A stretch of DNA of 64,000 nucleotides, from the NCBI GenBank assembly GCA_029762625.1, contig JARVGI010000001.1, positions 124,001 through 188,000 of the forward strand, in the 5' to 3' direction. Shown here one piece after another: positions 9,359 through 11,243 of this stretch. The notes under the pieces are model-generated. The model did not search any database. It saw nothing but the letters and a program-made list of their open reading frames with translations, and had not been told where the DNA came from. The position numbers and the translations under genes are program-made. The stretch comes from Methanomicrobiaceae archaeon. Lineage in GTDB: Archaea > Halobacteriota > Methanomicrobia > Methanomicrobiales > Methanomicrobiaceae. The number at the start of each line of letters is the position of its first letter. Positions within the stretch are counted from its first letter, which is position 1.

Positions 9359-9371
9359 CAATATATTTTAA
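9359..9371 (+). promoter_or_regulatory. TATA-like element of the ion-channel gene
   Basis: CAATATATTTTAA stands about 30 bases upstream of the GTG start at 9396. With the usual archaeal 25-base spacing, transcription would begin within a few bases of the start codon, giving a nearly leaderless message; no Shine-Dalgarno sequence is visible. Confidence 0.45.
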
Positions 9372-9395
9372 TAACGGCAATGCACTAGTGCTGGT

Positions 9396-11243
9396 GTGAC
9401 GCTCCGTGCCCTGGCCCTCCTGATCCTGGTCTGCATACCACCGGGCATCCCGTGCGGGCTCTGTGCATCGCTCGATATCCCGGCGGTTGAAGAACTGAAT
9501 GAAGCCCTCGGGCCCGAACAGGCGGCGATATACCTCCTTCCCGGGCTGCAGGAGGGTCAGACGGTCTATGTCTACGCCGAGGGGGTGTCGGGCAACCTCG
9601 ATCCTTTCGCCGCCATCGCCCCCCCAGATACCCCCCCGGGGCTGAGGGCGAATTTCGATGCGGAGGTCGAGCAGGCTATCGAGGAGGGCAGGGACCCCCT
9701 TCAGGTCGTTCCCGAATTTTCCGACCGCTACTTTCTGGCCTGGGACGATGACGGCGGCGAGGGGTATGACGCCGCCTTCCAGTATACCGTGCCGGATAAA
9801 GGGGACTATATACTGATCGTCACCAACAGCCCCGCAAAATCCGAGACCTTCGGGAGATTTCGCCTCCTCGTCGGGATCGACGCCCCGCAGGTGCTCGCCG
9901 GCGATGCGGCGCCGACGGGGGAGCGCATCGCCGTGCTGAACCAGGAGGCGTCGCAGATAGACGTCGGGGTGCAGGAGGTGCGCGGGAACCTCACCGCAGG
10001 TCAGGCGTCCTGGCAGTATTTCCTCTACCCGGTGGAGGAGGGGGATGTCTTCTACGCCTACATCGAGGTGACCTCCGGCAACCTCGTGCCGATGCTCATC
10101 CTTACGGATTTCGGGGACAAACCGCTTGCCAAGGGCATTCCCGCGAACCGTACGCAGGGCGCGCGGCTGCAGCACACCTTCGGGGACACCTGCTGCAATA
10201 ACATACTGGAAATCGTCGACGTTTTCGGCGGAAGTACCCTGAGACAATACCGCCTTCTGGTGGGCCTCAATGAGCCCGAGGTTCTCACCGGATCGGCCGA
10301 ACCGGGAGGGGAACCGGTCCTCCGGGAACCGATCGTCGTCAAGGTGGGCTTCCAGCTCGACCAGATCACCGGTGTCGACCAGAAAAGTGAAAATTTCGGG
10401 GTGGTCGGCAATATCTGGATGGAGTGGACGGACCCCGAGCTGGCGTTCAGCCCCGACGAATGCAACTGCAACTACAAGCTCTACCGGAGCATCGATGAGT
10501 TCTTGAAAGCGGAGGGGACGCGGTGGCCCGAATTCACCCTCTTCAACCAGCAGGAGCGGCGGTGGACGCAGAACCTCCTGATCCGCGTGACCCCTGACGG
10601 GACGGCGACCTACTTCGAGCGGTTCTGGGTCACGCTGCAGGCACCGGACTTCAATTTCCGGGAGTACCCCTTCGACGAACAGCAGTTCTACGTGCGCATC
10701 GATTCCATCTACGCGGAGACCTTCTTCGTCTACACCCCGTGGGAGGAGCGGACCGCCGTGGGGTCGCAGCTGGGGGAGGAGGAGTGGTACATCACCGCGT
10801 ACAATACCACCATCGACCAGGTCAATTTGACCAACGTCAATTCACGGTATTCGTTCGGGTTCCTGGCACAGCGCCACCTTGAGTTCTACATCCTGCGCAT
10901 TCTCATCCCCATCGGGATCATCATCGTCCTGACCTACATCCCCTTCCTGCTCAAGGACTACGGGAAGCGTGCCGACATCGCCTCGGCGAACCTCCTGCTC
11001 TTCATCGCCTTCAACTTCACCATCGCCAACGATCTCCCGCGGCTGGGGTACCTCACCCTCCTCGATTCACTTCTTGTGACGACTTTTGTGATCAGCGGTC
11101 TGACGGTTGTTTATAATCTCTATCTCAAATGGCTGGCCACACAGGAACAGATGGAGATCGCCGAACGCGTCGATAGGATCATGATCTGGCTCTACCCGCT
11201 GGCCTATATCCTGGCTATTGTGGTGATCCTGCACGTGTTTTAA
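9396..11243 (+). CDS. pentameric ligand-gated ion channel (Cys-loop receptor family) with duplicated extracellular N-terminal region
   Basis: Predicted neurotransmitter-receptor-like channel of 615 residues. A signal peptide (1-24) is followed by two similar beta-rich units; residues 46-79 and 208-240 match (YxLxPxxEGxxxYxYxExxSGNLxP), and each unit ends in RLLVGxxxPxVLxG (near 156 and 286). The ligand-binding domain begins near 312 (VVKVGFQLDQI...WMEWTDPEL) and contains the family YPFDEQQ at 424-430. Four membrane helices follow: M1 ~497-517 with the conserved proline (RILIPIGI), M2 ~527-546, M3 ~553-575 after LPRLGYLTLLDS, and M4 ~593-614. There is no disulfide Cys-loop, as in other prokaryotic members. 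The start is GTG. The N-terminal units resemble PPC-like beta domains, which is inference. Confidence 0.88.
   Translation: MTLRALALLILVCIPPGIPCGLCASLDIPAVEELNEALGPEQAAIYLLPGLQEGQTVYVYAEGVSGNLDPFAAIAPPDTPPGLRANFDAEVEQAIEEGRDPLQVVPEFSDRYFLAWDDDGGEGYDAAFQYTVPDKGDYILIVTNSPAKSETFGRFRLLVGIDAPQVLAGDAAPTGERIAVLNQEASQIDVGVQEVRGNLTAGQASWQYFLYPVEEGDVFYAYIEVTSGNLVPMLILTDFGDKPLAKGIPANRTQGARLQHTFGDTCCNNILEIVDVFGGSTLRQYRLLVGLNEPEVLTGSAEPGGEPVLREPIVVKVGFQLDQITGVDQKSENFGVVGNIWMEWTDPELAFSPDECNCNYKLYRSIDEFLKAEGTRWPEFTLFNQQERRWTQNLLIRVTPDGTATYFERFWVTLQAPDFNFREYPFDEQQFYVRIDSIYAETFFVYTPWEERTAVGSQLGEEEWYITAYNTTIDQVNLTNVNSRYSFGFLAQRHLEFYILRILIPIGIIIVLTYIPFLLKDYGKRADIASANLLLFIAFNFTIANDLPRLGYLTLLDSLLVTTFVISGLTVVYNLYLKWLATQEQMEIAERVDRIMIWLYPLAYILAIVVILHVF

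Follow-up and report, generated by a model that had tools for sequence, protein, structure and literature searches.

A probable DeCLIC-type pentameric ligand-gated ion channel in the genome of a methanogenic archaeon

The window that we analysed, a 64,000-nucleotide stretch of one contig from a Methanomicrobiaceae archaeon, contains a gene for a predicted subunit of a pentameric ligand-gated ion channel (pLGIC), which we assign, with a probability of roughly 0.85, to the type represented by DeCLIC. DeCLIC comes from a Desulfofustis-related deltaproteobacterium (PDB 6v4a, 6v4s, 7q3g/h, 9ev1-9eva, 9ftg-9ftj) and has the domain order NTD1-NTD2-ECD-TMD (PMC12664993, PMC9897478). The first-pass annotation of this DNA described the channel correctly: it is real, well conserved and well formed. 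Its kind is already known in structure, and the new part, as judged from sequence comparison, is an archaeal clade with intact calcium sites. We found no publication on DeCLIC in archaea or on such a channel in Methanoculleus or in methanogens, although absence from the literature searched does not mean that the channel is undescribed.

Predicted fold and match to DeCLIC

The channel gene (Table 1) is present as a single copy in the 2.2 Mb genome searched. The AT-rich stretch aatatattttaataa, about 25-30 bases before the GTG start, is a possible TATA box of the gene. Hydrophobicity predicts the signal peptide that had been noticed in the first-pass annotation, and the corresponding residues 1-26 have low confidence in the AlphaFold2 model.

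Table 1. Positions of the channel gene and its parts in the window
Feature	Position	Strand	Remarks
Whole channel subunit gene	9396..11243	+	ORF exact at these positions; GTG start; 615 aa
Possible archaeal TATA box	9360..9374	+	AT-rich aatatattttaataa; read in the sequence, possible only
Predicted signal peptide, residues about 1-25	9396..9470	+	Hydrophobic segment 1-28, Kyte-Doolittle maximum 2.22
NTD1, residues about 27-170	9474..9905	+	Acidic beta-rich lobe, two inserted helices
NTD2, residues about 186-300	9951..10295	+	Second beta-rich lobe, related to NTD1, without helical insert and without DDD loop
Ligand-binding-type extracellular domain, residues about 305-493	10308..10874	+	Pfam PF02931, E 2.8e-13
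Four membrane helices, residues 495-614	10878..11237	+	AlphaFold2 helices; M2 with D527 (2'), L534 (9'), F541 (16')

Several comparisons point to a pLGIC, as had been proposed. Of the two Pfam profiles named as a check in the first-pass annotation, Neur_chan_LBD matched residues 310-470 (E 2.8e-13, 50.2 bits against a cut-off of 26), and Neur_chan_memb gave no significant match to the channel protein (E 7). A phmmer search of the PDB aligned sTeLIC to residues 310-611 (E 7.6e-82) and GLIC to residues 306-614 (E about 1e-24), and the ligand-binding and membrane parts, including the M2 pore motif and the M2-M3 loop and through M4, aligned to GLIC, sTeLIC and DeCLIC. The AlphaFold2 model, a monomer built from 18 sequences with a mean pLDDT of 81.6, has beta-rich N-terminal units at residues 30-161 and 191-291, a beta-rich binding domain at residues 313-493 and four helices at residues 495-518, 522-546, 555-582 and 586-614. 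Residues 310-615, for which the annotation had staked its reading on a pLGIC match and a four-helix bundle, thus contain both the Neur_chan_LBD match and the modelled helices.

The assignment to the DeCLIC type comes from the whole chain. Residues 42-611 match DeCLIC 49-631 in one stretch (E 1.4e-131, phmmer against the PDB) with 39% identity over 568 aligned residues. By domain, the identity is 33% in NTD1, 30% in NTD2, 48% in the binding domain and 43% in the membrane domain, the NTD lobes being the most diverged parts. The first 20 PDB matches of the model in Foldseek are all DeCLIC (best E 1.8e-65; TM 0.70-0.71 over 602 columns), and the whole-chain r.m.s.d. of 6.6 between the monomer model and DeCLIC does not establish the relative placement of the domains. 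The archaeal channel shares its binding and membrane domains with sTeLIC (PDB 6fl9), at 44% identity by fold alignment, but the solved sTeLIC chain lacks the NTD lobes. GLIC of Gloeobacter, annotated as proton gated, has the pLGIC core in common at about 23% identity in the fold alignment and is likewise without the NTD. The N-terminal duplication ahead of the binding domain, which had been called unusual, is therefore the known DeCLIC architecture, matched over its full length.

The two tandem, mutually similar extracellular units reported in the first-pass annotation are a true internal duplication of homologous domains. NTD1 and NTD2 match each other already as single sequences (BLASTP, E 1.4e-6), and their profiles of 18 rows each align in hhalign with 99.5% probability, E 4.5e-22 and 33% identity over 106 columns, compared with a best E of 0.014 among column-shuffled controls (n=60). 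The same kind of profile-profile comparison found no relation between NTD1 and the ligand-binding domain (E 0.9). In the model, the helices 83-96 and 101-112 are inserted in NTD1; this insert and the WDDDGG calcium loop of NTD1 are absent from NTD2 in the profile alignment, and the two lobes of DeCLIC differ in the same way. NTD1 is strongly acidic, with 27 Asp/Glu against 7 Lys/Arg. The authors of the DeCLIC structures also describe its two NTD lobes as largely homologous (PMC12664993).

Calcium sites, pore and vestibule

Four calcium sites have been described in DeCLIC (PMC12664993): site 1 (D76, P77, D123, D124, Y129) and the weaker site 2 (D124, G126, G128) in NTD1, site 3 at the subunit interface of the binding domain (E347, P434, F436, L477), and the weaker site 4, also at the subunit interface (Q476, G478, E480). 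When mapped through the alignment, all 14 residues named around these sites are identical in the archaeal channel, in which they are D69, P70, D118, D119, G121, G123 and Y124 for sites 1 and 2, and E332, P417, F419, Q458, L459, G460 and E462 for sites 3 and 4. They include every one of the side-chain ligands D76, D123, D124, E347 and E480 of DeCLIC, and its loop F glutamates E479 and E481 are likewise kept. Because D69, P70, D118 and D119 are invariant across 33 distinct family sequences and the LGEEE loop is present in every archaeal row, the calcium site in NTD1 is the best conserved of the family, and in archaea the interface site has the DeCLIC form. In the deep group, the five rows from Chloroflexota carry GEDE instead, with the proline absent.

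The pore gates are also shared. L554 (9') and F561 (16') of DeCLIC are identical in the archaeal channel, whereas E547 (2') is conservatively replaced by Asp. In the family alignment, the 9' Leu is invariant, a single row has Trp for the 16' Phe, and 2' is always acidic, either Asp or Glu. The outer vestibule of DeCLIC is narrowed by N405 (PMC9897478); this position varies across the family and is Arg 388 in the archaeal channel, a replacement that could alter ion access. Besides its archaeal host, the archaeal channel thus differs from DeCLIC in the 2' Asp and Arg 388, and shares with it the domain order, the named calcium-site residues, the M2 gates and a CxC motif in the binding domain. This motif (C356/C358, positions 10461-10469) is kept in DeCLIC and nearly all DeCLIC-type sequences, but three sequences, all from the same family (L027, L029, L030), have lost it.

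Possible gating mechanism

DeCLIC is inhibited by calcium and has been described as conducting upon calcium depletion, and its NTDs appear to accelerate gating. However, it remains closed in calcium-free cryo-EM structures (PMC9897478, PMC12664993), and its authors caution that its true trigger is unsettled. Because the calcium-site and the 9' and 16' gate residues are identical, the most likely mechanism for the archaeal channel is that of DeCLIC, namely a homopentameric cation channel which extracellular calcium would close and the NTD lobes would tune. The single gene copy makes a homopentamer the simplest assembly. By this analogy, five identical subunits would form the pore, and the signal peptide would direct the binding domain and both jelly-roll lobes to the outer side of the membrane, beneath the cell envelope layer. 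The channel would be kept shut by calcium in the NTD1 lobe and at the subunit interfaces, where the loop F glutamates and the beta1-beta2 glutamate would bind it. Upon loss of calcium, perhaps combined with another cue (a pH change, for instance), the lobes would loosen, and cations could then pass a pore gated by the Leu 9' and Phe 16' rings, with an acidic ring at its inner mouth. The N-terminal lobes would be mobile and tune the gating. The first-pass annotation had suggested that the extra domains gate, shield or sense a different ligand; homology narrows these options to lobes that probably bind calcium and tune gating. Homopentamer assembly, calcium inhibition, cation selectivity and the physiological role are all transferred by analogy, and we give calcium removal an even chance of being the main trigger.

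Only somewhat less plausible is a DeCLIC-like channel opened by protons or by a small-molecule agonist from the surroundings of the methanogen, in which calcium is only a structural stabiliser of lobes and interfaces. The data of the DeCLIC authors do not distinguish a structural from a functional role of interfacial calcium, and a further signal may be needed (PMC9897478). Some DeCLIC entries in the PDB also bear titles that describe an open state at pH 5, and sTeLIC, the next relative, is titled as alkaline-pH gated. On the other hand, there is no candidate ligand for such gating, and no conserved partner gene adjoins the channel gene beyond its own genus.

Host, gene neighbourhood and distribution

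The host is a methanogenic archaeon, since the genome has matches to MCR alpha and the named relatives of the channel belong to Methanoculleus and other Methanomicrobiales; the archaeal origin given in the first-pass annotation thus holds. The MCR alpha matches lie at two places (C3:3561-3962 and C28:71279-71680), perhaps reflecting two MCR isoenzymes. An archaeal 16S model found no match in the genome, though control genomes matched, so that the assembly probably lacks the rRNA.

Upstream of the channel gene are an S-adenosylmethionine decarboxylase gene and, on the other strand, one for an FKBP-type isomerase; downstream and convergent are a TiaS-like gene and a homoserine dehydrogenase gene. 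These neighbours suggest no ligand, and among the orthologue loci compared they recur only at two same-genus loci. The window locus does not have the arrangement of the Methanoculleus-type loci (L003, L004, L062, L071), where the order AI-2E-family transporter, channel, lactate/malate dehydrogenase tends to be conserved, with one conserved gene lacking a Pfam match between the transporter and dehydrogenase genes. At another locus (G059, L064 5460-6569), the gene immediately upstream of the DeCLIC-type channel, in the same orientation, encodes a CLC-type chloride channel. Searches for the channel on plasmids and in viral contigs found none, and thus give no sign of a mobile carrier.

Archaeal pLGICs had been called rare in the first-pass annotation. 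This does not agree with the 27 of 232 genomes of the order, in six of 40 genera, that have a DeCLIC-type match (E below 1e-100), nor with 25 further genomes of the order with a weak match to the C-terminal half. The frames of the latter are about 290-530 residues long, mostly shorter than the channel, and probably encode pLGICs of other types. Among 394 sampled genomes of the phylum, a few outside the order also have DeCLIC-type members (G461, G384, G307), and bacterial cousins are found in Chloroflexota and in a single gammaproteobacterial bin. In archaea, pLGICs are already on record from Methanosarcina, Thaumarchaeota and other Euryarchaeota (PMC4795631), where, in the accessible portion of that source, the pLGIC core only is analysed and DeCLIC-type NTDs are not described.

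It is improbable that the gene is a transferred copy, recent or in decay, that serves no function in the archaeon. The distribution is indeed patchy, with only its own genus represented within the family of the window among the genomes listed, and two loci show damage. In the same-genus orthologue at L009 5878-7721 (matching G002), a frame break near residue 306 divides the gene; either a sequencing error or true damage to the gene may explain this. In G033, a decayed NTD1 fragment (L036 1372-1719) adjoins a small membrane-protein gene resembling one upstream of the intact channel of that genome (L068 6896-7312), and is a remnant of a duplicated channel locus. However, almost all of the 27 genomes with a DeCLIC-type channel have intact frames, and the calcium and pore residues are kept over deep divergence. 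Moreover, the sequences of the order are not scattered among bacteria but form, together with Methanotrichaceae L007, a group of 24 rows with support of 100/99, outside which fall L059 and L060, two sequences of a different family of the phylum; the tree has midpoint rooting only, which does not settle the direction of transfer. Contamination of the archaeal bin by a bacterial contig, conceivable as foreign contigs can occur in bins and bacterial cousins exist, is very unlikely, with the gene inside a long contig beside the TiaS-like gene, the same flanks in two further genomes of the genus and closest relatives that are all archaeal (53-79%).

The DeCLIC architecture, structurally described so far from one bacterial protein, persists, with intact calcium sites, across a broad archaeal clade. 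The many diverged natural versions in methanogens offer a means to ask whether calcium is the regulator, and the clade opens a way to study rapid ion signalling in archaea. We propose, tentatively and with considerable doubt, that this lineage-wide branch may serve as a calcium or pH sensor at the methanogen surface, admitting cations as external calcium drops, and that Arg 388 may have re-tuned its vestibule. If true, archaea would have a signalling channel whose modulatory domain is defined.
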